Source of the DNA: Pseudomonadota bacterium
Lineage (GTDB): Bacteria; Chloroflexota; Ktedonobacteria; Ktedonobacterales; JADMIN01
Direction: 5' to 3'
Assembly: GCA_021324535.1 (NCBI GenBank)
Contig: JAJPIU010000086.1
Location: 1-40,072, forward strand
DNA length: 40,072 nt
Part shown: positions 11,299 through 39,789 of the stretch, piece after piece
How positions within the stretch are numbered: position 1 is the first letter of the stretch
Layout: the number at the start of each line of letters is the position of its first letter
Notes under the pieces: generated by a model
What the model was told of the DNA's origin: nothing
The model's input: only the letters and a program-made list of their open reading frames with translations
Database searches by the model: none
Made by a program: the position numbers and the translations under genes

Positions 11299-11799
11299 AT
11301 GGATGAAGCTCGGAATATCCGTCAGGTGAGCGTATATGTTAGCTATGCGCGCGCCGATACCGTGCGATTGGAGCGGTTTGTGCCTGTCCTGCGGAGCGTC
11401 GGCTGTCGTGTGTGGATGGATGAGGGGAAAGTCCACACTAACTATCAGGAGCTTGCCAGGCAGCTTCAAGACGACATCCGCGTCTGCGATGTGATGGTTG
11501 TGGCGCTTTCTCCTGCGGCCGTTGATTCCAGATGGGTGCAACGCGAGACAAAACTCGCACAGCGCCTTGGCAAGCCCATCATTCCCGTGATGGTACGCGC
11601 CATCCAGCCACCCAATACGCAAGGGATGTTGGAGACGATTGATCTCTATGACATCGAGCGGCTTGAAGAAGGAACAACGAAATTGATCGCAGCGCTCAAC
11701 CAGGTCGCCCGCCAGGGGGGGTCAACCGGCAAAAATGATGGAGCAGACGCCAGGCCGAAGCATCCGTCCGCTCCACCTCTGATTTTGATCCCCGGTTAA
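11299..11799 (+). CDS. solo TIR-domain protein
   Basis: A 166-residue protein that is almost all one TIR domain (about residues 8-138). Visible blocks are VSVYVSYARAD (strand A), a VWMDEG box, CDVMVVALSPAAVDSRWVQRE and GKPIIPVMV. Glu83 in WVQRE is at the position of the catalytic glutamate of NAD-cleaving TIR enzymes, so NADase activity is possible but unproven. There is no transmembrane helix or fused sensor; the last 30 residues are polar and disordered-looking. The start ATG 11299 has AGAGGA about ten bases upstream. Its TAA lies in GTTAAC, whose other strand supplies the TAA of the converging aminopeptidase gene. It may be a defence or signalling effector; no partner gene is adjacent on the same strand. 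Confidence 0.85.
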   Translation: MDEARNIRQVSVYVSYARADTVRLERFVPVLRSVGCRVWMDEGKVHTNYQELARQLQDDIRVCDVMVVALSPAAVDSRWVQRETKLAQRLGKPIIPVMVRAIQPPNTQGMLETIDLYDIERLEEGTTKLIAALNQVARQGGSTGKNDGADARPKHPSAPPLILIPG

Positions 11800-14753
11800 C
11801 TCTTGGCGGTGTCGCCAGCATGGGTAGCGTGTGCGCGTCGCTTCCTGGTGGGCGTCGAAACCATGCCGTTCGCGCCGTTCGCGCCGTTCGCGCCACCTGA
11901 GCCATTCATGGCATGCGCGCCATTCCTGCCCTGGCCGTTGCGGTCTACCTCCAACGCTTCCACGCGATCCCGCAACCGGCGATGCTCATCGCGTAGCGTC
12001 TCTATGTCGTCGCGCAGGCGCTGTGTCTCGGCTGAGGCGTCGCTTTTCCTGATCTGGCGAATCGCCAGGCGCGCGCCACGCACAACGCGCTCATCAGGAT
12101 GGCTGGCGATGAGGCGTTCCAGCGCGGGGATGGCGCGGGCGTCGCCCCAGGCGCCCAGCGCAGGGATCGCGCCGCTCAGCGTCCATATCCACGGATCATC
12201 CAGCGCGGCGATCAGCGCCTCTACGGCGCGCGTGCGGTCGGAGGGAGCGTCAATGCGCTTGGTGTTCGCAAGGGCAAGCAGGCCGCGTGCGGCGGCGGCG
12301 CGCGCATCCATTGGCTTCTCCATGTTCGTCGTCCAATCCGTCAGGATGGGTATGACACGCGGATCGCCAAGCGCGCCCATGCCCGCAAAGACGCCGTTGC
12401 GGATGATCTCCGTCCAGGATGGTGTTTCAGTGAGCGCGGTAAGCTGTTCGAACGCGCGGGAGGCGCGGGTCTTGCCGAGCGAGCGCGCAGCGGCTGCAAA
12501 GACACGATAGCTGGGGTCGCCATGTTCCAGAATGGCGCTGAGCGCGGCGGCGGCGCGTTCGGCCAGGGTCGCCTGCGCCTCGCTGCCCTGCGCCTGGAAC
12601 TCACCTAGCGCCTCGACAATCGCCAGCCGTGCTTTTGGCTCACGCTCAGGATCAAGTTGGTCGAGCGCGTTGATCAGCGCAGTGAGCGCACGTTCGGTTC
12701 TCTGGCCACCAAGCGCACGCGCAATCGCTGCGCGCGCCGCCCAATGCTTTTCGGCCAGCAACGCCGACTCGAGCGCCGCCACGCTCTGCCGGTCTGCCAG
12801 CTTGCCCAGCGCCTCAGCCGCCTCGATACGCCCCCGGATGTCGGGATCGCGCCGCAGTTGATAGCGCAGGAGATCAGCGGAGCGCTCAAAATCCAGAGTC
12901 TTGATCAGCCAGCCTCCGTAGTCGAAGCGCACGCCAAAGGGCCGCCGCTCCAACGGAAAATACAACGTCTGCTCCGCCTGATCGATCATCACCCGCCGGA
13001 CGACCACCTCCATCGGCGCATCAGGCTCATCCGGGCTGGCGGTGTCGCTTTCGGGGACAAAGAAAGCAATATCTACCGGCGTCGCGAAGAGCGGCGTCTG
13101 TTCGTTCACCTCTTGCGTCTGGCGGACGGTCAGCTTCGCGAGGCGCTGTTCGCTATCCCAGGCATAATTCACATTGAACTCAGGATGCCCTGCTTTATAG
13201 AGCCATTGCTCGAAAAAGCGCGCAAGGCTGCGTCCGGTCGCCTCCTCCATCGCGCGCTCCAGGTCGGCGGTGATCACCTCGCGTCCCTGGTTGCGCTGCG
13301 CATACCGCTGGATGCCACGCCAGAACGGCGCCTCACCCACGACATAGCGCAGCATATGCAGCACGAGCGAACCTTTTTGATAGTTATGGCAATCGAACAG
13401 TTCTTCGGCGTTCTTGTGATAGACGTTGTAGACGATGGGGCGTCGCCCGTGCGCGTCGGCTTCCAGGTAGGCGCTTAGATTGCCTCGTAGCTCCTCGCGG
13501 AAGTCGTCCTCGCCGTACTCATGGCGCATCCAGTCGGCCTCGAAATACGTCGCGAAGCTCTCTTTCAGCCAGGTATGCGACCAATCGCGCACGGCCAGCA
13601 GATCGCCAAACCACTGGTGTACCAGTTCGTGCGCTACCACCGGCTCGGCCTTCCAATCGAGCCGCCCGCGTTTGTCGGCGAGCAGACGATAGGTGTGCGT
13701 TGTCGCGCTGACATTTTCCATCGCGCCCAGGAAGGTTTCGGCCACCGTCTGCGCGTACTTCGCATAGGGATACTCGACGCCGAATTGCTCTGTGTAGTAG
13801 GCGATCATGCCGGGAGTTTTGCCCATCATCGCCTGCGCATCTTCCTCGCGGCCAGGGCGCACATTATAAGTCAGTGGAACCTCGCGCGCGCCGCTCTTCG
13901 CCGTATCGCGCAGCTCGGTGAACTCGCCGACGACCAGCGTGATGAGATACGCCGGAAAGGCGACGTCCTGCCGCCAGCAGTAGGTTTTCGTGCCGTCGTC
14001 GTTCTCAATGGTCTCCTCGAGTTTCCCGTTGGAGACGGTGATCATGTTGGCCGGAACTGTGGCGCGCATGGTAGTGGTGGCGCGGTCGTTGGGGAAATCA
14101 TGTGTAGGCAGCCAGTAGTGGTGGTACTCGGTCTCGCCCTGTGTCCATGCCTGCGGCGCGAGATTGGGATCGCCCTTCGTGGGGGCGACGAACGTGAGAC
14201 CCGCGCGCGGTGTGGCATGATAGCGCACACGCACACCAAACTCCTCACCATAGTGATAGGGGCGATCCAGCCGGATGCGCAGTTTCTCGCCCTCTTGCCA
14301 GAAGGTGAGCGGCGTTTCGTGCTTGACTTGTTTGCTGTGCTTGTCAGGCGCGTCGTGCTTGCTCTTGCCAACCAGCGTCACCTCGGTAATCTCAAGCTCG
14401 GCGGCGTCGAGCGCGACCGTCCCGATCTCCTCGAAGAGCACACTGAACCAGGTGACGACATCGCCGGTGATGGATTGCGTGGCGAAGTCGAGCCGCACGT
14501 CAATATCCATGTGGCGCACATCAGCCGGGCGATCCGGAGCGTAGGTAGGCGCGTCGCCAGGGAGGGAGAAATCGCTTCCTGCGCTGGTAGTTGGCGGAGC
14601 AGGCGGGCGCAACGCACGTAGGGCGCTGTCGTCTGCAATGTCTGCAAAAAGCGTTGCAACATCACACGTATGCACGAACGAGCCTCGTTTCTGGTGTGTA
14701 GGGTATTCCAGGGTATTCCTGAGCAGCGTATCCTCAATACAACAGATCAGCAT
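11796..14753 (-). CDS. M1-family zinc aminopeptidase with HEAT-like C-terminal region
   Basis: A large (985-residue) gluzincin metallopeptidase that should remove N-terminal amino acids from peptides. The substrate motif GAMEN is at about 343-347, the zinc site HELVH at 375-379 and the third ligand Glu398 in WLKESFATYFE. After the M1 part, about residues 640-900 form Ala/Leu-rich helical repeats of HEAT type (such as AIPALGAWGDARAIPALERL). A coiled coil follows (about 915-945), then a Gly-Ala-Asn repeat and a basic tail. The start is uncertain: ATG 14753 lacks a clear ribosome site, while GTG 14675 has GAGG at a good distance. I saw no signal peptide. The stop overlaps that of the TIR gene on the other strand. 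The M1 assignment is secure. Confidence 0.93.
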   Translation of the reverse strand: MLICCIEDTLLRNTLEYPTHQKRGSFVHTCDVATLFADIADDSALRALRPPAPPTTSAGSDFSLPGDAPTYAPDRPADVRHMDIDVRLDFATQSITGDVVTWFSVLFEEIGTVALDAAELEITEVTLVGKSKHDAPDKHSKQVKHETPLTFWQEGEKLRIRLDRPYHYGEEFGVRVRYHATPRAGLTFVAPTKGDPNLAPQAWTQGETEYHHYWLPTHDFPNDRATTTMRATVPANMITVSNGKLEETIENDDGTKTYCWRQDVAFPAYLITLVVGEFTELRDTAKSGAREVPLTYNVRPGREEDAQAMMGKTPGMIAYYTEQFGVEYPYAKYAQTVAETFLGAMENVSATTHTYRLLADKRGRLDWKAEPVVAHELVHQWFGDLLAVRDWSHTWLKESFATYFEADWMRHEYGEDDFREELRGNLSAYLEADAHGRRPIVYNVYHKNAEELFDCHNYQKGSLVLHMLRYVVGEAPFWRGIQRYAQRNQGREVITADLERAMEEATGRSLARFFEQWLYKAGHPEFNVNYAWDSEQRLAKLTVRQTQEVNEQTPLFATPVDIAFFVPESDTASPDEPDAPMEVVVRRVMIDQAEQTLYFPLERRPFGVRFDYGGWLIKTLDFERSADLLRYQLRRDPDIRGRIEAAEALGKLADRQSVAALESALLAEKHWAARAAIARALGGQRTERALTALINALDQLDPEREPKARLAIVEALGEFQAQGSEAQATLAERAAAALSAILEHGDPSYRVFAAAARSLGKTRASRAFEQLTALTETPSWTEIIRNGVFAGMGALGDPRVIPILTDWTTNMEKPMDARAAAARGLLALANTKRIDAPSDRTRAVEALIAALDDPWIWTLSGAIPALGAWGDARAIPALERLIASHPDERVVRGARLAIRQIRKSDASAETQRLRDDIETLRDEHRRLRDRVEALEVDRNGQGRNGAHAMNGSGGANGANGANGMVSTPTRKRRAHATHAGDTAKS
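11865..11894. repeat. 9-bp in-frame tandem repeat in the M1 peptidase tail
   Basis: Three copies of GCCGTTCGC plus GCC. On the minus strand it encodes Gly-Ala-Asn repeats near the C-terminus, outside any folded domain. Confidence 0.9.
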
Positions 14754-14849
14754 GGTCGTTGTCAGCCATGTGAGGAAACTACTCTTTGGCGCTCATCAGA
14801 CCATGCGTATGATGGCAATCATACAACTTGTGCGACGGCCATCACTATC

Positions 14850-14877
14850 TTTATATTCATAACGCACCGAAAGCCAA
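14850..14877 (-). promoter_or_regulatory. candidate promoter of the M1 aminopeptidase gene
   Basis: On the minus strand TTGGCT (14877-14872) and TATAAA (14855-14850) are 16 bases apart. The predicted start of transcription is about 90 bases before ATG 14753. The rest of the 14754-15035 gap shows no gene. Confidence 0.45.
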
Positions 14878-15035
14878 AAGACAACGCGCCAACGCATCTG
14901 AACTATCGCCCCCAGCGCCTCTAGCGCGCGCCATCGAGCGCAGTTCTTCTGATGGGGTATGGGAACAATGGTGGAACGAGCCGCCAAGTTCTTATCCGCT
15001 CCCAAGCTAAAAGGCGCATAATAGGAAGGAAATGA

Positions 15036-15056
15036 TCCTGAGGCATTCTCTCAGGA
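15036..15056 (+). promoter_or_regulatory. small hairpin next to the ribosome site of the 15075 gene
   Basis: TCCTGAG and CTCAGGA form a perfect 7-bp inverted repeat with a 7-base loop. It ends just before the AAGGAGG ribosome site of the following gene and could affect its translation or mRNA stability. Confidence 0.4.
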
Positions 15057-15074
15057 GGAGAAGGAGGAATGGTT

Positions 15075-15872
15075 ATGGCGCAACAACCGATCATCCAGCC
15101 TGTGACCTCTGGCGCGGCGGCTCGCCAGGGATTTCTCTACGGCGCAATTCTTGGCATCCTCAGTCTACCGGTCATCGCGCTCGTCACATTGAGCCGTCTT
15201 GGCGGCGTCGGCGGTGGGCAAACGCTTCTGATTGGCTTCGCGGTGATTGCGATCATTCTGACGTTCATGGCGGGTTTGGTCGCGTCTCGCCGCACGGGCA
15301 GGCTCAGTTCCGGCGTCGGGGCAGGGTTACTCGCTGGCGCGTTGGCGGGCTTCATTGCAGTCTGTCTGGGAACTGTCATTATTATTTTGCTTGCGCCCTA
15401 TATTGACCTGCGTGCGGCGCGCATCATTCGCCTGACGGGCCGACGCGGGCCAGGTCTCATCGCTGACATCCTCCGCTTGTTCTATGGTGGGGTGATTCTC
15501 GCGGTGATCGGGCTGATCATGGGAACACTTGGCGGCCTGATTGGGCGCATCAGGCGTGGAAGCGGCGGAAACGCGGGCAATATGGCGGCGGGGTACGTCA
15601 GCGGCGGCCCAGTGCCAACTGGTTACGCAGCGCCCAATCAGAGCGCCCCATCCAATCAGGGCTATCAATCCTACCAGCCGTACCATACGCCGATTCCTGG
15701 GCGGACGCCATTGCCTGCGGATAGCGATCTCCCAGGTGGATCGTATTCCTCAACGCTGGGAGAGTATCATGGTGACGACCCGACGACGCTCATGCCCAAT
15801 CCGCAGTATCCCACGCCCATCCCTGACGACCTCACGTCCACCCCAAGCGCGCAGCAGCCAACGGGCTTGTAG
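15075..15872 (+). CDS. four-helix membrane protein with Pro/Tyr/Gly-rich tail, unknown function
   Basis: A 265-residue protein I do not recognise. About four hydrophobic segments are visible: GFLYGAILGILSLPVIALVTL, LLIGFAVIAIILTFMAGLVA, GLLAGALAGFIAVCLGTVIIILL, and GGVILAVIGLIMGTLGGLIG. After that comes a Gly-rich stretch and a tail of about 80 residues rich in Pro, Gln, Tyr and Ser (YQSYQPYHTPIPG). Such tails are common on membrane proteins here, compare the HtrA N-terminus and the PP2C N-terminus. I chose ATG 15075, because AAGGAGG lies seven bases before it; ATG 15069 is too close to that site. The gene stands alone, with a hairpin before its start and a clear terminator after it. Confidence 0.75.
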   Translation: MAQQPIIQPVTSGAAARQGFLYGAILGILSLPVIALVTLSRLGGVGGGQTLLIGFAVIAIILTFMAGLVASRRTGRLSSGVGAGLLAGALAGFIAVCLGTVIIILLAPYIDLRAARIIRLTGRRGPGLIADILRLFYGGVILAVIGLIMGTLGGLIGRIRRGSGGNAGNMAAGYVSGGPVPTGYAAPNQSAPSNQGYQSYQPYHTPIPGRTPLPADSDLPGGSYSSTLGEYHGDDPTTLMPNPQYPTPIPDDLTSTPSAQQPTGL

Positions 15873-30885: not shown

Positions 30886-30901
30886 TGTGAGATCGCTCAC
30901 A
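30886..30901. promoter_or_regulatory. CRP-like palindrome upstream of the ArsA gene
   Basis: TGTGA-GATCGC-TCACA is an exact match to the core TGTGA-N6-TCACA of CRP sites. It lies about 80-97 bases before the ATG at 30983 and 44 bases after the regulator's stop codon. I found no clear -10/-35 pair beside it. Confidence 0.45.
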
Positions 30902-30982
30902 CTTCCCGATTTTCCAGAGGCAGCAGCGTTGGCGGGCAGCCGCCACAGACGATATATACCACAGCGAAAGGGACACCCTGGC

Positions 30983-32176
30983 ATGCGTTTCATTCTCTAT
31001 CTTGGCAAAGGCGGCGTCGGCAAGACCACCATCGCCGCCTCCACCGCCGCACGCGCCGCGCAACTTGGCAAGCGCACGCTCGTCGTCAGCACCGATCTTG
31101 CCCATAGCCTGGCCGACGCGCTCGACCGCACCCTCACCGCCGAACCGCAGGAGGTCAGTGATCGTCTCTGGGCACAGGAGATCAACGTCCTGGATGAGAT
31201 GCGCGCGGGCTGGGGCAAGGTACAGGACTACATCACAAACGTTCTGAAGAGGCAGGGCGCGAGCGAGGTGGCCGCCGAAGAGATGGCGCTGATCCCAGGG
31301 ATGGATGAGATCGTCGCGCTGTTGAACATCCATCGGCAGGCGCGCGACAACAACTATGACGTGGTGGTGATTGACGCCGCGCCCACGGGCGAGACGGTGC
31401 GGCTGCTCAGCATGCCGGAGACCTTCCTGTGGTATGTCAACCACGCCAACGGCTGGCGCAACCTGGCCTTCACCGCCGCCAGGCCGCTGCTGAAAACCTT
31501 CCTGCCAGGCGTCAACGTCTTTGAGTCGCTGGAAAAGCTGAATGTGCAGGTAGCCGCGCTCCGCAAGACGCTGACCGACGCCGACATCAGTTCCTATCGG
31601 CTGGTGGTCAACCCTGAGAAGATGGTGATCAAAGAGGCATTGCGAGCTGAAACCTATCTTGCGCTGTATGGCTACCCCGTGGACGGCGTGATCTGCAACC
31701 GCGTGTTGCCACAGGTGGAGGGCGGCTACCAGGACCAACTGCTGCGCGATATGGCGGCGCAGCAGCAGACCTACTACAACATCATCCATCAGACGTTTAC
31801 CCCGCTGCCCGTCTGGGACGCCCCCTATCGCTCGCGTGAGATTCTCGGCGCGCCTGCGCTGGCGGAGCTTGCCAGCGAGGTATGGGGAGACGCCGACCCC
31901 ACACAAATCTTCTATCGTGGCGCCTCACAACAGCTTGAAAAGCGCGGCGATGGCTATGTGCTGCGGCTGCCGCTGCCCCATGTGGAGCTTGGCAAGGTCG
32001 TGATGACCAAGAAGGGCGACGATCTGATCGTTGAGGTCGGCAACTTCAAGCGCGACATCGCCCTGCCAACGGTACTTGTTCCGATGGAGGCGACCGTCGC
32101 TCGGATGGCCAATGGCGCGCTTGAGATCACCTTCGCGCCGGTCGCCAGCGAAGCTAACGTGGGCGCACACTACTAG
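30983..32176 (+). CDS. ArsA/Get3-family ATPase with Hsp20-like C-terminal domain
   Basis: A 397-residue protein that opens with MRFILYLGKGGVGKTTIA, the deviant P-loop of ArsA/Get3 (residues 8-16). DLAHSLADAL and VVVIDAAPTGETVRLLS are the switch regions. The C-terminal 70 or so residues (YVLRLPLPHVELGKV, then LIVEVGNFKRDIALP) look like the Hsp20-like ArsA domain found in many bacteria. There is one ATPase domain, unlike the duplicated ArsA of arsenite pumps, and no arsB or arsR nearby, so arsenite transport is unlikely. A Get3-like chaperone or a metabolic role is as likely. The start ATG 30983 has AAAGGGA nine bases upstream. It probably shares a transcript with the tandem GNAT gene 52 bp later. 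Confidence 0.9.
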   Translation: MRFILYLGKGGVGKTTIAASTAARAAQLGKRTLVVSTDLAHSLADALDRTLTAEPQEVSDRLWAQEINVLDEMRAGWGKVQDYITNVLKRQGASEVAAEEMALIPGMDEIVALLNIHRQARDNNYDVVVIDAAPTGETVRLLSMPETFLWYVNHANGWRNLAFTAARPLLKTFLPGVNVFESLEKLNVQVAALRKTLTDADISSYRLVVNPEKMVIKEALRAETYLALYGYPVDGVICNRVLPQVEGGYQDQLLRDMAAQQQTYYNIIHQTFTPLPVWDAPYRSREILGAPALAELASEVWGDADPTQIFYRGASQQLEKRGDGYVLRLPLPHVELGKVVMTKKGDDLIVEVGNFKRDIALPTVLVPMEATVARMANGALEITFAPVASEANVGAHY

Positions 32177-33173: not shown

Positions 33174-33920
33174 TCAATGAGAAGCATGGACGGTGGCGAT
33201 GTAGAGCGCCAGCGAGACCACCGACGCGACGATGCTCAGGCCGATGCCCCACCCGGCAATGCGTTTCATGCTCGGCGCCGAGTACACAGGATGGTATCTA
33301 TTGAGCGCCACCATGCCAACAATGAATCCCGGCACGCCCGGCAGCCAGCCATAGGCTCCACAGGTGAAGACAACCGCAATCACTCCCAACACTAGCGCGG
33401 TGATCGCCAGCCCCTGCCCCATGTTCCGCACGACTGGCTGCGGCGATTGATGTATCACTGGCCCAGGTGGCGTGGCCTGCATAAACGGCTGAGGGCGCGG
33501 AGCGAAGGTTGGCCCAGGCGCGCCCTGGAAGGTTGGCGTCGGGGCTGGTGGGCGAACAACTCCTCCCTGTTGGATCGGCTGACCGCCCGTTCCTTGCGCC
33601 TTTGCGATCCGTGGCTGAAGGTTCGCAGGCGGCGCGCCACCCTGCGAGGTGGGAGCAGGCTGTCCCTTGGCGAGTGGCGCCGCCTTGGGCGGCTGATTCG
33701 CCAGGAACTGCGCCCGTTGCGCAGGCGTCAGGACAAAGATCGGCCACGGGCGCGGATCACCATCAGCAGGGATGGGCAGCCAGGGCGCATTGCCCGCCGG
33801 TCGTGTAATACTCTGCGCCGAATGCGTCGGGCTGCCCTCGATGGCGAGGCGCGTCCCTATTTCGGCGCCGCCCGCCGCGCCAGCAACTTCTGACGCCGTG
33901 CGCTGTTGCGTATTGTCCAT
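33174..33920 (-). CDS. DUF4190-like membrane protein with LTPAQR motif
   Basis: A 248-residue protein. Residues 45-76 hold the segment APWLPIPADGDPRPWPIF then VLTPAQRAQFLANQ. This aligns without gaps with residues 15-46 of the 34105-34851 product. A long Pro/Gln/Ala-rich linker (about 77-160) follows, then three hydrophobic stretches (GLAITALVLGVIAVVFTCGA, a Gly/Pro loop region, and WGIGLSIVASVVSLALYIAT) in the pattern of DUF4190. The soluble N-terminus should be in the cytoplasm. ATG 33920 has only a weak AGGTG site. It is the last gene of the vWA-PP2C-kinase cluster but lies 184 bp from the previous one, with a tandem repeat between. Function unknown. Confidence 0.75.
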   Translation of the reverse strand: MDNTQQRTASEVAGAAGGAEIGTRLAIEGSPTHSAQSITRPAGNAPWLPIPADGDPRPWPIFVLTPAQRAQFLANQPPKAAPLAKGQPAPTSQGGAPPANLQPRIAKAQGTGGQPIQQGGVVRPPAPTPTFQGAPGPTFAPRPQPFMQATPPGPVIHQSPQPVVRNMGQGLAITALVLGVIAVVFTCGAYGWLPGVPGFIVGMVALNRYHPVYSAPSMKRIAGWGIGLSIVASVVSLALYIATVHASH

Positions 33921-34027
33921 ATGTACACCTGACTTTCACTCTCTCCGCCAAGTCGGTCAACCGGAAAAGATGATAAAGAAGACGAACAAAGACTGTTTCG
34001 CGAAGTGTTACGAATCATTCCTCTCTT

Positions 34028-34066
34028 CTGTCACATCCTCTGTCACATCCTCTGTCACATCCTCTG
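34028..34066. repeat. 12-bp intergenic tandem repeat
   Basis: Three exact copies of CTGTCACATCCT and part of a fourth, between two genes of the cluster and about 110-145 bases upstream of the 33920 start. It is not within a gene. It could be a regulator site or a slippage repeat. Confidence 0.85.
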
Positions 34067-34104
34067 CACACGCTTGCCTGCGCTCATATGATTTTTCCGT
34101 TGGT

Positions 34105-34851
34105 TCAATGATGCAAGACATGGATGGATACGATGGTGAGCGCAATGGAGGCAAGCAGACCCACGACACCAAGCGCCACTCCTAACCGCGCCATACGCTG
34201 TTCGGCGGCGCCCCGCTGTACTTGCCTGAGGGCGATGGCGCCCAGCATAAGCGCGATGAGACCCGCCACAACTGGCATGATAACCAACAGATGGGACATC
34301 AGCGGCGTAAAGGCCACAAGGCAAGCTACGAGGCCAAAGGCAGCCGTCCACTGCGCGGTGAGGCGCCCTCGCCGTAACCGCCTGGTCGGCGGCCCAACGG
34401 CGGCCTGCGGTGTTTGCACGGGCGCCACCCTTCCGTCACTCATTGGCCCGGAGAAACGTATCGCCTGCCCCCCGCCTGCCGCTTGCTGGCGCGCTCGCAC
34501 AGCGGCGCCCACGAGCTGGCCGGTCGCCGCCTGGCGCGCGGCCTGGCCCAGATTGGCCGTGGGCGCAGGAGCGGCGGCTTGTCCCTGGGCCACTTGTGGC
34601 CCCGCCACACGCGGCGCTGTGACTGGCGCGGTTACTAGCCCCGTTGCTGTGTCGGCCTCTATCACTTCCGACGCGCTCGATACACCGAGCGCATGGGTGA
34701 GCAGCCAGCCATTCTGCCCGTTTGCGACCTGCCTCCTTTGTGCGGGAGTAAGTTTTAGCAGCGGCCAGATGGCGATGCTCTCTTCGACTGGCATAGGCAA
34801 CAAGGGCACAGTCTGCGGCGTTGTTGCGCCCGGTGGAAAGGGTCGCGCCAT
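34105..34851 (-). CDS. membrane protein with LTPAQR motif, second copy
   Basis: A 248-residue protein, the same length as the neighbour at 33174. Residues 15-46 carry VPLLPMPVEESIAIWPLL then KLTPAQRRQVANGQ, matching the other copy at the same spacing. A linker rich in Ala, Gln and Pro (about 60-150) follows, then RRGRLTAQWTAAFGLVACL and further hydrophobic stretches (about 160-245) forming three helices. Outside the motif and general layout the two proteins differ clearly. I took ATG 34851, with AGGAG upstream; the longer frame from 35076 would overlap the kinase gene and has unprotein-like composition. It begins 41 bp after the kinase gene. Function unknown. Confidence 0.75.
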   Translation of the reverse strand: MARPFPPGATTPQTVPLLPMPVEESIAIWPLLKLTPAQRRQVANGQNGWLLTHALGVSSASEVIEADTATGLVTAPVTAPRVAGPQVAQGQAAAPAPTANLGQAARQAATGQLVGAAVRARQQAAGGGQAIRFSGPMSDGRVAPVQTPQAAVGPPTRRLRRGRLTAQWTAAFGLVACLVAFTPLMSHLLVIMPVVAGLIALMLGAIALRQVQRGAAEQRMARLGVALGVVGLLASIALTIVSIHVLHH

Positions 34852-34892
34852 AGGTTTCCCGCTCCTACTTCTCTCTATGAAGAGATCGCCGC

Positions 34893-36350
34893 TTAGACCG
34901 CCTTCATTTCGACATAGGCGATGCGATCCAGATTGAGTTGACCGAGCAATAACTGCGTGTTGGGGCGCAAAGCGACGCGACTGCCCAGCGGTACCGGCGA
35001 CCACCCCCCACTCGCCGGATCCGCTCCACCAACACGCGCCTGCAAGTCGGGCAGGGCAATATTTTCCAGGAACCACTCCGAGCGGTTGGTGTCGTACCGG
35101 ATTACGCCGCGATTATGCGAATCGGTACGCGCGCCCGATTGCCCCACGCGCAGGCTGACATTGGGATGCACATGCCAGTTATAGATTGGGCGGCCCGGAT
35201 AGCCCACGATGTAGCGATTATAGGGCGTCCCCTGAAACGAGGCGTTCTCGTCCACGTACTCATAGCCGCCGGTTCGTGTGGGGCGGGGCGCACGCAACTT
35301 GAGATAGGGCAACTGCGGAAAGGCAGTGAAGCGCGTTTTGCACAGTGGACAACTCATTGGCGGCACATCGGGCGCCACGAAAAACTTCTGTTCACAGAGG
35401 GGATTTCCACAGGGAACCACACGATCCATCATCTCGCTCAGCGCCTCTTCCCACAGGTCGGCGGTGGGGCGCAGCGCCGGATTATGCAGCCCTTCGACGA
35501 ACACCCGACGAAAGAGATCGCGTACACGCGGCGAGAGCGTTTCCGCCGTCACCTGAAGATGCTTCGGGCGGTTGGAGGTATCGGTGGGATGCTCGATGTA
35601 GAGCGCGTTGGCGCCGAGCGCCAGGTTGTCATCGAGTTCGGCGTTGGTGGAGTGGCGCTTCGGCCCTAGCAAAGGATGCTGGAAGAGCAGCCAGCGATAG
35701 AGCAAGACGGCCAGCGCATGGCGGTCGGTGACAACCGATGGCTCCCGTACCTTGCCGCTTTGCAGTTCGGGCGCCATATACTCTGGCGTTCCCAACACCT
35801 CGGCGGGCATCTCATTGGGAATCACCAGGCTATCGCAGTCGAGGATCGTCGCCGTCCCACTCAGCGGATCGACAAAGACATTCTTCTCCGAGAGGTCAGA
35901 GTGGCACAGGCCAAGCGTCGAGAGGCGCGCCACAGCCCGCGCCATCTTGATTGCGCAAGCCAGCCGCCCGATCCACCATCCCTTCTGCTCAGGAGTCAGC
36001 CGGGAGTACGATGAACCAAAGAAGTAGTTGTCGAGCCGGGTCATCCCTTCGACATAACGCGAACTAACGCCAGGTCGTGGCTGCACGGCCCGCTTGAGCG
36101 GCCAGGCAAACAAGGCTTCCCAGTAAGGATCATTCCCCACGACATTGTATTTGCCGATGATCGCGTCAATCTGGCGGTTGCGATCCTGAACCATTCGAGC
36201 CACAGCAGCGGGTGGCATATTGGGTGGCGCCTTGAACAGCTTGACGACGTGCTTGCGGTCGCGCGAACGAAAGATCGCGCCCTGTGCCCCTTCTGAAAAG
36301 GGAACATCCTCATATTGTTCGTGCGTGCCATCGCTAAAGACTACTTCCAC
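34893..36350 (-). CDS. Ser/Thr protein kinase with zinc ribbon and FHA-like tail (YegI/TerY-P type)
   Basis: A 485-residue cytoplasmic kinase. The Gly-rich loop is VPFSEGAQGAIFRS, the ATP-binding Lys is about 37 in HVVKLF, and the catalytic loop HSDLSEKNVFVD is at about 150-161. The metal-binding position reads DCD, in place of DFG (about 171-173). GTPEYMAPEL closes the activation loop. A zinc ribbon follows (Cys pairs about 314/319 and 334/337, CGNPLC and CPLC). The last 120 residues (RGVIRYDTNRSEWFLENI, then PLGSRVALRPNTQLLLG) look like an FHA-type beta sandwich, with low certainty. I chose GTG 36350, with AGGGGAG before it, over ATG 36377, which lacks a site. It overlaps the PP2C gene's end by 10 bp, so translation is likely coupled. 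Both genes resemble E. coli yegI/yegK. Confidence 0.88.
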   Translation of the reverse strand: MEVVFSDGTHEQYEDVPFSEGAQGAIFRSRDRKHVVKLFKAPPNMPPAAVARMVQDRNRQIDAIIGKYNVVGNDPYWEALFAWPLKRAVQPRPGVSSRYVEGMTRLDNYFFGSSYSRLTPEQKGWWIGRLACAIKMARAVARLSTLGLCHSDLSEKNVFVDPLSGTATILDCDSLVIPNEMPAEVLGTPEYMAPELQSGKVREPSVVTDRHALAVLLYRWLLFQHPLLGPKRHSTNAELDDNLALGANALYIEHPTDTSNRPKHLQVTAETLSPRVRDLFRRVFVEGLHNPALRPTADLWEEALSEMMDRVVPCGNPLCEQKFFVAPDVPPMSCPLCKTRFTAFPQLPYLKLRAPRPTRTGGYEYVDENASFQGTPYNRYIVGYPGRPIYNWHVHPNVSLRVGQSGARTDSHNRGVIRYDTNRSEWFLENIALPDLQARVGGADPASGGWSPVPLGSRVALRPNTQLLLGQLNLDRIAYVEMKAV

Positions 36351-38242
36351 GGTCGCTCCCCTAGATGATAGATACACACCAGACTGCGATCATCAAACGA
36401 GCCAGGCCGCTCATACGAGAGCAGTTGTTCGAGCGCGCCTGTCACCCTGGCGGGCGGCTGTCCCTTCAACACATCTCTGAACAGCGGCTCTTCGAGCAGC
36501 GGCATATGCTGCTCGATGGGTGTGAAGTCATCGGAGACGCCATCCGTCATAGCCAGACAATAGCACCCTGGCCCCTCTTTGATATACGTCTTGATGCGAT
36601 CCTCCCATTGCTCCGGCGGCACGTCCTGGAAGAAGATCGTCTCGTTGCCGGTAGGGCCAATATCGGGCGTCGTCAGACGAAGCATGTGCTCGTTGATGGC
36701 GTCCTGGTTATAGAAGCGCGCGACGATAGCGCCGTCGCCCACCTGAGCGCCGCCCAGCGCATGGATGCCTTTGCCCAGATGGCGCTGGACGACCACCAGC
36801 AGCGTCGTGCGCATCTCCTGCCAGGAAACCCCACGTCTCTTTTCTTCCGCTTGCAACGCATCATGCGCGCCCTGCAACGCTGCCAGCAGAATCGCCCGGA
36901 GCGCCGTCTCGGCGTCTCGCTGAGACACCCTTTTATACTTATTGGTAGCGGCGGAAGCGCCCCTGAGTGCGGCTTCCGCCGCGACATTGGCGCCTACCCG
37001 CGCCAGATCATACGAGCCGCCGCCGTCACAGACGACGCCAATCTGCCACCCATTGGAGATGTCGCCTGCGATGGCATCTTCGCGGAACTTGGCGTCGTGT
37101 TTGTGGCTCAGTCCGCGCAGGCTCACCCCAATGATCGCCCAGCCGTCGCGTTCGAGCGCTACGGTCGCTGTATCAGGATAGCGATCTCCCAGGGCGGCGT
37201 CGGGGTCACGATCCTCGAATTGCGCCGGGGCGCGCTGCTCGAAGACCATCGGCTCCGGCTCGGGTTCCGGCTCCATGACCAGCGTCTCTTCATCATTGAG
37301 CAGAGGTATAGGAGGCGTAGCCGGTTGCCGGGCGTCTGTTCTGACCTCTTGTCCCGCTTGCCGCTGGATGTCTCGTTGTCGTTGCGCGTCTCGCGCCTGC
37401 TGCGCGCTGGCCCGGCGTATCATATGGTGTTGCATGGCCCACATCGTCTTCCCGTTGATGAACATTCCCCCAAGCGCCAGAATGAAACCGATGATGCCGA
37501 AGACTATACCCAACGTCTGTGCGCTTGGAGGGAAATCCGCGATAGACCCTGTATACGTACTCACGGAGAGCGCCACCAACAGAACCGCCGACACGACAGC
37601 AAGCCCGCTCAGCCCCAATCCCCAGCGAACGCTTCCGGGGTTTTCCGGGTCGGCGACAGGGACGGCGAAGCTATACCCATCCTGTTGCCACCTATCGAGT
37701 TGAGCGGGATGCGCATGAGTGGGCCAGAAGAACCGCGACAGCGGAGGCGAGCCTTCCGGTTCCGGCGTGGCGCCTGCTGTAGCTGTAGGTGGAAGGGTGG
37801 GGGCCGGACTAACCGCCGCCTGATCTCTCTTCTGCCGATTGGCGCGTGGTGTGGTGGCGCCCCCGTCCACTGGCGACATGTCCGCTGGAGCGGGCGGTGT
37901 GGCTGCGGGTTGTTGTGGCTGATAGCGAAAGCCCTGCTGGGGAAATTGCGGAAACTGGGGAGATTGGGGAGATTGTGGCTGCTGCGGGGCTATGCGAAGC
38001 GCCTGCATCTGCGTAGGCGCCTGACCGGGCATTGGCGTTTGACCAAGAGGAGCGCCCTGCGCTGGGTAGCCCGGCGCGTTGGAGGGAAGCAGCTGTCGCG
38101 CGCCTGGCCCTTGCACAGGTTGTGCCGTCCGGGGGGACTGTTGCGGCTGCTGGCGCTGTTGCCCTCCCTGATCGGCGGACGATCCTGCGCCCTGTTCCGT
38201 GCCGGATGGTTGGAGCGGATTCGGGGGGTTCTGGGTATCCAT
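36341..38242 (-). CDS. membrane-anchored PP2C-type protein phosphatase
   Basis: A 633-residue protein. Residues 1-165 are disordered and rich in Pro and Gln (SPQSPQFPQFPQQ repeat). Two helices are at about 207-227 and 243-264, so both ends should be cytoplasmic. The C-terminal part (about 369-628) is a PP2C_2 domain: VCDGGGSYDLARVGANVAA (metal Asp406), VGDGAI, AMTDGVSDDFTP and a last DDRSLV. It should remove phosphate from Ser/Thr, most simply from targets of the adjacent kinase. Just before the helices FFWPTHAHPAQLDRW resembles, with one gap, the WP....PAQ motif of the cluster's small membrane proteins. ATG 38242 has AAGGAGG nine bases upstream. The kinase gene overlaps its end. Confidence 0.9.
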   Translation of the reverse strand: MDTQNPPNPLQPSGTEQGAGSSADQGGQQRQQPQQSPRTAQPVQGPGARQLLPSNAPGYPAQGAPLGQTPMPGQAPTQMQALRIAPQQPQSPQSPQFPQFPQQGFRYQPQQPAATPPAPADMSPVDGGATTPRANRQKRDQAAVSPAPTLPPTATAGATPEPEGSPPLSRFFWPTHAHPAQLDRWQQDGYSFAVPVADPENPGSVRWGLGLSGLAVVSAVLLVALSVSTYTGSIADFPPSAQTLGIVFGIIGFILALGGMFINGKTMWAMQHHMIRRASAQQARDAQRQRDIQRQAGQEVRTDARQPATPPIPLLNDEETLVMEPEPEPEPMVFEQRAPAQFEDRDPDAALGDRYPDTATVALERDGWAIIGVSLRGLSHKHDAKFREDAIAGDISNGWQIGVVCDGGGSYDLARVGANVAAEAALRGASAATNKYKRVSQRDAETALRAILLAALQGAHDALQAEEKRRGVSWQEMRTTLLVVVQRHLGKGIHALGGAQVGDGAIVARFYNQDAINEHMLRLTTPDIGPTGNETIFFQDVPPEQWEDRIKTYIKEGPGCYCLAMTDGVSDDFTPIEQHMPLLEEPLFRDVLKGQPPARVTGALEQLLSYERPGSFDDRSLVCIYHLGERPWK

Positions 38243-38261
38243 TGGGCGCTACCTCCTTGGG

Positions 38262-38951
38262 TTACGGCATAGGGATCGTGCCGTTGGGCGGCGGTGGAAG
38301 CTGCGCGACTTGTGGCGCTGCGCCTGGCGCAAAGCCCCCTGCTGCCCGGCTGGCTGTCATAATCGAGCCGGAGACCCACGCGAAGAACGATCTCAGGTTG
38401 GCCGGAGTGACATCCTGCATCAACAACGCAATATTTGCAAACTGGCGGATGATCTGGATATTTGCGCCAGGGCCGATGCCCAGCCCAATCACATTCGCCG
38501 CCTTATTGACGGTGCGGTTGGCCAGCCGTTGCGCCTCGGTCTGCCAGTGATCCGACGGCTCGCCATCGGTCAGCACAAACACAATTGGTTTGTAATCGCC
38601 CTTCTGCGCGTCCCCCTGGTTGATAAACAAATCCTGGTCGAGCGATTCATTGAGCAGACGCAACGCGCCGCCCAGCGCCGTGCCCGATATGCCGGGCGGA
38701 TTGGCATTGAACTGCGGCGGCGTGAACTGCGTGATTGGGATCAACGGTGATTGATACGCCTGGTCGGCGAAGGTGATGATGCTGATGTACACCGTGCTGG
38801 CGGCGCGTGGGTCGCCAAGTAATTCCTGGCAGATCATGATGACACCGTTGTTGACCCCAACGATCTTCACTCCCTGCATGGAGCTTGACGTATCCAACAA
38901 CAGATAGACGGGCAGACGGCGCGACGCATCCTGATTGAAGGCGATGGACAT
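38262..38951 (-). CDS. vWA domain protein (TerY/YegL type), copy 2
   Basis: A 229-residue single vWA domain with a Gly/Pro-rich tail. The metal-ion site (MIDAS) is intact: Asp20, Ser22 and Ser24 in LLDTSSSM, Thr in SGTALGGAL and Asp in FVLTDGEPSDHW. TerY-type vWA proteins are thought to hold a metal and act as a scaffold or ligand-bound switch with a kinase and phosphatase. There is no signal peptide or helix, so it acts in the cytoplasm. ATG 38951 has AAGGGG six bases upstream. It is 19 bp from the PP2C gene. It is a clear paralogue of the gene at 39012-39677, with long identical stretches. Confidence 0.93.
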   Translation of the reverse strand: MSIAFNQDASRRLPVYLLLDTSSSMQGVKIVGVNNGVIMICQELLGDPRAASTVYISIITFADQAYQSPLIPITQFTPPQFNANPPGISGTALGGALRLLNESLDQDLFINQGDAQKGDYKPIVFVLTDGEPSDHWQTEAQRLANRTVNKAANVIGLGIGPGANIQIIRQFANIALLMQDVTPANLRSFFAWVSGSIMTASRAAGGFAPGAAPQVAQLPPPPNGTIPMP

Positions 38952-39011
38952 AAACGCCCCTTTCGTCCCTTTATGTCTCTTTTCATGGCTTTCATGGCCT
39001 GGTTAGACAGG

Positions 39012-39677
39012 TTAGAGTTGAATCACCAGCCCTGGAGGCGCCGCTGGCAGATTGACCTGCCCACCCGCCGCGTTGGGATTATTCGCCGCCTGGCTGGCTG
39101 TCTTGATCGATCCGGAGACCCACTGGAAGAGATTGCGAATGCTCTGGGGGTTGACATCCTGCATCAGCAACGCTGTTTTCGTCAGTTGCCGGATGACGTT
39201 CATGTCGGCGTCGGTGCCGATGCCAATGCCAATGATGTTTGCCGTGGTCGAACGCGACAGCAGCCGTTGCGCCTCGGTCTGCCAGTGGTCATTGGGTTGG
39301 CCGTCGGTCAGCAGGAAGACCAGCGGCTTGAAGTCGCCCTTCACCTCGCCCCCCTGATTGGGAATCAGGTCGGAATCCAGTGATTCGTTCAAGAGGTGCA
39401 GCGCGCCACCCAGAGCAGTCATGCCGTTGGCCGTCAGGTTGGGCGGTGTGAACTGCGTGATGGGCACGAGCGGCATCTGATACGCCTGGTCGGCGAAGGT
39501 AATGATGCTAATGTACACCGTGCTGGCGGCGCGTGGGTCGCTCATGATTTCCTGATAGATCATCGTCACACCGTTCTGCACCCCGACGATCTTTACTCCT
39601 GCCATCGAGGATGAGGTGTCGAGCAGGAGATAGACGGGGAGCCGACGGGTGTTCGCTGTTGAAAAATTGATAGACAT
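39012..39677 (-). CDS. vWA domain protein (TerY/YegL type), copy 1
   Basis: A 221-residue vWA protein, first in the cluster. MIDAS residues are Asp20, Ser22, Ser24 (LLLDTSSSMAG), Thr in MTALGGAL and Asp in LLTDGQPNDHW. DPRAASTVYISIITFADQAY is shared word for word with the other copy. The tail (about 200-221) is Pro/Ala-rich and different from copy 2. ATG 39677 has GAAAGG seven bases upstream. It is 60 bp upstream of copy 2. The operon's promoter and palindrome are just upstream. The role in the kinase/phosphatase cluster is inferred from the known TerY-P triads. Confidence 0.93.
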   Translation of the reverse strand: MSINFSTANTRRLPVYLLLDTSSSMAGVKIVGVQNGVTMIYQEIMSDPRAASTVYISIITFADQAYQMPLVPITQFTPPNLTANGMTALGGALHLLNESLDSDLIPNQGGEVKGDFKPLVFLLTDGQPNDHWQTEAQRLLSRSTTANIIGIGIGTDADMNVIRQLTKTALLMQDVNPQSIRNLFQWVSGSIKTASQAANNPNAAGGQVNLPAAPPGLVIQL

Positions 39678-39759: not shown

Positions 39760-39789
39760 ATTCTACTATAACAAAAGCACTGTTTTCAA
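39760..39789 (-). promoter_or_regulatory. candidate promoter of the vWA-PP2C-kinase operon
   Basis: On the minus strand TTGAAA (39789-39784) and TAGAAT (39765-39760) are 18 bases apart. An overlapping TATAGT (39770-39765) offers a second -10. It lies about 85-110 bases before the first vWA start codon. Confidence 0.5.

Follow-up and report, generated by a model that had tools for sequence, protein, structure and literature searches.

The window analysed here, a stretch of 40,072 nucleotides, is one entire contig of a Ktedonobacterales genome with a completeness of 91%. Between positions 33174 and 39677 the ORF listing places six minus-strand genes, which in order of transcription encode two vWA proteins (vWA1 and vWA2), a PP2C phosphatase, a Ser/Thr kinase, and two membrane proteins (M2 and M1) (Table 1). 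With the starts refined from the sequence (the upper coordinate of each gene in Table 1), the successive gaps are 60, 19, -10, 41, and 184 bp, so that five genes are tightly packed and M1 stands apart. The kinase starts with GTG behind an AGGGGAG ribosome-binding site and overlaps the PP2C gene by 10 bp, and M2 starts with ATG. A candidate promoter, the top-scoring match of its kind in the cluster, precedes vWA1, and vWA1, vWA2, PP2C, kinase, and M2 likely share one transcript. An earlier note on this DNA had described six mostly close-set minus-strand genes, comprising two vWA proteins, a two-helix PP2C, a zinc-ribbon kinase, and two membrane proteins; all six were found in place, and Pfam, hydropathy, and cysteine positions agree with that domain make-up. 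Only 395 bp of contig remain upstream of vWA1, so genes farther upstream lie outside the view. On the other side, convergent with the cluster, positions 30887-32176 encode an ATPase of the ArsA/GET3 type that carries an HSP20-like tail; the ORF after it has the sequence of a GNAT-like acetyltransferase. Positions 11299-11799 encode a small protein with a stand-alone TIR domain (Pfam TIR_2 5e-19; weak ThsB_TIR).

Table 1. Genes and sequence features of the cluster, in order of transcription.
Feature	Position	Strand	Basis and remarks
Promoter-like site TTGAAA-N18-TAGAAT	39760..39789	-	Candidate; 82 bp upstream of vWA1; consensus scan, 10/12
vWA1, TerY/YegL-type, 221 aa	39012..39677	-	Pfam VWA 3e-8; intact MIDAS (DTSSS..T..TDG)
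vWA2, tandem paralogue of vWA1, 229 aa	38262..38951	-	Pfam VWA 7e-8; intact MIDAS
PP2C, 633 aa	36341..38242	-	Pfam PP2C_2 4e-25; metal-binding aspartates conserved in alignment
PP2C TM helices, residues 209-262	37457..37618	-	Hydropathy 2.4 and 2.5
Ser/Thr kinase, 485 aa	34893..36350	-	Pfam Pkinase 1.3e-8; full-length homologues
Kinase zinc ribbon, CX4C...CX2C	35340..35411	-	Four cysteines invariant
Kinase C-terminal FHA-like beta-sandwich	34896..35312	-	Predicted; AlphaFold2, Foldseek
M2, membrane protein, 248 aa	34105..34851	-	N-terminal WP-x-x-x-LTPAQR, Ala/Pro-rich linker, DUF4190-like helices
M2 WP-LTPAQR motif	34711..34809	-	Motif profile match (by construction); leave-one-out check
M2 hydrophobic helices	34123..34344	-	Hydropathy
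12-bp tandem repeat TCTGTCACATCC, 3.8 copies	34027..34070		In the 184-bp M2-M1 gap; Tandem Repeats Finder
M1, membrane protein, 248 aa	33174..33920	-	Architecture as M2
M1 WP-LTPAQR motif	33690..33791	-	Motif profile match; leave-one-out check
M1 two TM helices	33189..33410	-	Hydropathy 2.5 and 2.2

vWA1 is 43% identical to TerY1 of Acinetobacter and 30% identical to E. coli YegL (blastp), shares about 67% identity with vWA2, and like vWA2 lacks a TerY_C domain by Pfam. In the tree the two window proteins pair at 100/100, which marks them as a local duplication of their own, separate from the triplication in clusters G005 and G017 and from TerY1/TerY2. The doubled vWA had been taken for an addition to the known system, a view that we abandoned: at least two vWA genes lie within 7 kb of the kinase in 30 of 41 relatives from other phyla and the copy number is 2-3 in most relatives, so multiple vWAs are usual and the pair is no special feature of this locus.

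The phosphatase consists of a Pro/Gln-rich N-terminal region, two TM helices, and the C-terminal catalytic domain, whose charged (Arg/Lys-rich) flanks suggest by sequence a cytosolic position. PP2Cs with at least two hydrophobic helices were found only in the window, G005, and G017/C62, and such helices are absent from 38 of 39 PP2Cs of other phyla and from all 12 Chloroflexota PP2Cs checked from outside this clade; the membrane anchor, proposed earlier as an addition, is thus clade-specific. A possible third copy of the M1/M2 motif in the PP2C (FFWPTHAHPAQ) was rejected at a profile score of -0.3 bits. At L042:7407-8993 and L044:7090-8778, the PP2Cs of compact triads carry a fused N-terminal vWA-like stretch (RSALIFALDVTGG...; a reading by eye, Pfam naming PP2C alone), and the cluster at L210:3777-11844 has three PP2C genes in a row together with a single kinase gene and a pair of vWA genes.

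The kinase is composed of a kinase domain (CHSDLSEKN, DCD, APE), a zinc ribbon whose cysteines C312, C317, C332, and C335 are invariant in 32 homologues, and a further C-terminal domain, and alignments indicate that active-site residues are intact in the kinase, the PP2C, and both vWAs (MIDAS). It aligns end to end with a TerD/TerC-linked kinase of Acinetobacter guillouiae (32% identity over 524 aligned positions, 6e-83) and by profile it matches E. coli YegI (2e-16), a pair for which blastp returns nothing at E<=1. A single-sequence search of contigs with the kinase returned no relatives, and a profile search yielded full-length or nearly full-length kinases on 41 contigs from other phyla, which include Bacteroidota, Pseudomonadota, Planctomycetota, and Campylobacterota; on 39 of these contigs a PP2C gene directly precedes the kinase gene in the same orientation. 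Closer to the window, profile matches occur in 8 of 47 Ktedonobacterales genomes (one a fragment, and that of G046 distant) and, at 1e-25, in 17 of 400 genomes of the phylum, distant branches included. A maximum-likelihood tree unites the kinases of the window, G005, and G017/C62 as monophyletic with support of 99/97. The kinase profile found no relatives in viral contigs, and PADLOC and NCBIfam returned generic kinase similarity and nothing more for the cluster.

The domain beyond the zinc ribbon is kept across phyla in the alignment and is predicted to adopt an FHA fold. AlphaFold2 modelled it with a pLDDT of 79 for the window protein and 90 for a homologue, and Foldseek searches of the PDB retrieved mainly FHA domains with the former (best E 8.5e-3, probability 1.00) and FHA domains in all 50 best matches with the latter (best E 2.8e-3, probability 1.00). 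The sequence gave no such assignment, so that the call comes from fold prediction alone: Pfam has no FHA match on the kinase C-terminus, hhalign against 14 FHA domains of the same genome gave a probability of about 1%, and the canonical phosphothreonine-binding Gly-Arg, Ser-x-x-His, and Asn are not conserved (homologue alignments differ). We found no mention of this domain in the literature searched, a set to which the founding 2012 Ter paper does not belong.

M1 and M2 are paralogues (31% identical) with DUF4190-like tails that fall under the Pfam curated cut-off, and the Arg/Lys-rich flanks suggest from sequence that their motif tails are cytosolic. Directly after the kinase there are two motif proteins in the window, one in G005, and two in G017 (C62), and proteins with this N-terminal WPxFxLTxxxR motif stand next to a kinase only in these three clusters. 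Leave-one-out motif profiles recovered every member (7e-5 to 2e-9 when a single sequence is searched), and the motif profile retrieved its own four members plus an unexpected fifth (genome-wide E 0.0015), a protein of 223 aa with MREIPSEYPDKPWPTLNLPLSERNAII and C-terminal helices, encoded in the gap that separates the kinase of G017/C62 from the first motif protein there; its score was reached by none of 20,000 shuffles of that protein, which together with the leave-one-out recovery indicates that the motif is more than chance. The earlier note had regarded the two LTPAQR proteins as additions and had asked whether they occur away from the triad. They proved clade-specific, and the motif profile found no further credible motif protein in 47 Ktedonobacterales genomes. 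The only other match below 0.001 in these genomes, in G033, spans 19 residues in a frame with two stops, and the best M2 match elsewhere (G017:C21, 8e-5) has an internal stop codon and looks like a chance match of the Pro/Ala-rich linker; neither was accepted. The G005 motif protein and one of the two in G017 lack a TM helix, so anchoring is not the sole role of these proteins, and the motif has no invariant Ser/Thr column, a finding that makes phospho-docking in its strict form less convincing. A vWA protein of another kind, its C-terminus weakly matching a winged helix, is encoded at L040:6642-7535, downstream of the motif protein of G005.

Judged by its sequence, the core of the cluster fits the definition of a TerY-P triad given in PMC11090510: vWA proteins with a full MIDAS, a PP2C with its metal-binding residues, and an STK fused C-terminally to a zinc ribbon, encoded by adjacent genes in one direction. 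The triad of Ter clusters, described by Anantharaman et al. 2012 (after the summaries in PMC11090510 and PMC4978471), likewise places TerY-type vWA(s) before PP2C and STK-zinc-ribbon and has multiple vWAs, and its kinase is colinear with ours over the full length, C-terminal domain included. It differs in that the window has no TerD, vWAs without the TerY_C metal-binding domain, a membrane-anchored PP2C, and two added motif membrane proteins. TerD or TerC lies near 26 of the 41 relatives outside Chloroflexota (TerD, TerC, and TerY_C were Pfam-confirmed in example relatives), whereas neither is found near the cluster in the window or at any of 15 other Chloroflexota loci, to which the TerC check refers. 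The earlier statement that the window has no terC or terD gene is therefore correct, and it extends for TerD (PF02342) to the whole assembly and to seven cluster-bearing relatives.

The note had further equated the set with the TerY-phosphatase-kinase triad, exemplified by E. coli yegL-yegK-yegI; the 6e-83 match to a TerD-linked kinase upholds the first part, and the missing blastp match to YegI speaks against the E. coli genes as nearest kin. In E. coli yegL-pphC(yegK)-yegI, vWA, PP2C, and kinase are neighbours too, but YegI and the window kinase are remote relatives, motif proteins are lacking, and the membrane-bound partner is the kinase (PMC13232886) rather than, as in the window, the phosphatase; PphC is reported to dephosphorylate YegI (PMC13232886, citing PMC6112009). 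Type III-A CoCoNuTs contain a TerY-P with duplicated vWA, in which one vWA, the internal one, is without the MIDAS threonine and the vWAs are separated by an ATPase (PMC11090510), whereas both window vWAs have an intact MIDAS and nothing between them; no CoCoNuT protein (CnuB/CnuC McrBC-type, CnuH/CnuE) is encoded on the visible side of the cluster. The kinase of a TerY-P-like defence module has a C-terminal OB fold, in place of which the window kinase has the zinc ribbon and the predicted FHA-like fold. The compact Chloroflexota triads G242/C137, G017/C87, and G019 are single vWA-PP2C-kinase strings, also with no TerD nearby (kinases of the latter two 38-40% identical), but unlike the window they have a soluble PP2C and no motif proteins. 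The cluster is thus a rare membrane-tethered TerY-P variant, without Ter, in one Ktedonobacterales clade.

A phospho-switch at the membrane is plausible, because anchored PP2C and motif proteins co-occur in exactly three clusters whose kinases are monophyletic. On balance we favour the reading that a Ter-less TerY-P triad has been turned into a membrane device, its kinase recruited by tails or vWAs and reset by the anchored PP2C. The soluble kinase would be drawn to the inner membrane surface by binding the motif tails of M1/M2 on the cytosolic side, metal-loaded vWA adaptors, or both, and would dock through its zinc ribbon and FHA-like domain; its targets would be the vWA proteins, the tails of M1/M2, the kinase itself, or more than one of these, and the PP2C, anchored in the same patch, would reset the switch, the input candidates being metal, membrane, or envelope stress. 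Triad homology and order, intact active sites, the lack of TerD in eight cluster-bearing genomes, the FHA-like domain, and flanks that fit cytosolic tails argue for this reading; the distance of M1 from M2, the noncanonical FHA residues, and the negative profile-profile FHA test argue against it. The parts and their co-inheritance are established by the sequence, and what we infer from them is the recruitment, the substrates, and the input. More tentatively, and with some doubt, the WP-x-x-x-L-T-x-x-R tails might be an undescribed docking element that recruits the TerY-P kinase via its FHA-like domain, forming a self-contained writer-reader-eraser patch. If so, this domain, seen in relatives of several phyla, would be a trait shared by TerY-P kinases in general, beyond this clade, that has gone unrecognised, and it would provide a docking part that the kinase family as a whole has been missing. 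TerY-P switches are widespread, and a clade with a membrane-fixed phosphatase and dedicated tagged proteins offers a short list of candidate substrates or docks for them.

The cluster might instead be an ordinary TerY-P stress or defence switch on which membrane proteins and PP2C anchor are incidental, with no shared function. TerY-P modules occur widely and combine with many partners (PMC11090510), these genomes often encode DUF4190 tails, and the spacing of M1 would fit, but the perfect co-distribution of motif proteins and anchor in a monophyletic clade of two families, with no credible motif protein elsewhere in the 47 genomes, makes this unlikely. Somewhat less probable still is an anti-phage module in which M1 and M2 are membrane effectors silenced by phosphorylation or dephosphorylation and released upon infection. 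TerY-P-like modules do act in defence and accompany CoCoNuTs (PMC11090510), a kinase-kinase-phosphatase module confers phage defence (PMC11341870), and the cluster is patchy within the order; the generic nature of the PADLOC similarity, a visible side without neighbouring defence genes, the low complexity of the motif tails, and viral contigs free of kinase homologues all weigh against it.

A last alternative, to which we give the least credence, is that the cluster is one piece of a bigger membrane complex that also comprises a MotA/MotB-like pair, which the window genome lacks, has lost, or carries off-contig. Such a pair adjoins the G005, G017/C62, and G046 clusters, and also other vWA genes; its occurrence in two of the three anchored-PP2C clusters and not in the window genome means that the full system may be larger, and the contig end would leave room for it. 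Against this, the window genome holds no MotA-like homologue at 91% completeness, and clusters G017/C87, G012, and G019 have no pair nearby. The MotA/MotB-like label derives from topology and a MotB-like GWLFADLLLALAMIFL helix, Pfam naming neither protein: one has two TM helices plus a coiled coil, the other one TM helix with GWLFADLLLALAMIFL. Pairs of this kind lie by vWA/PP2C/kinase sets of Ktedonobacterales at L040:13965-16091, L041:6648-7259 and 14444-15808, L191:2302-4487, and L181:4247-6390; in another family of the phylum, L210:13882-15000 shows the MotA-like half only, at the edge of the locus.
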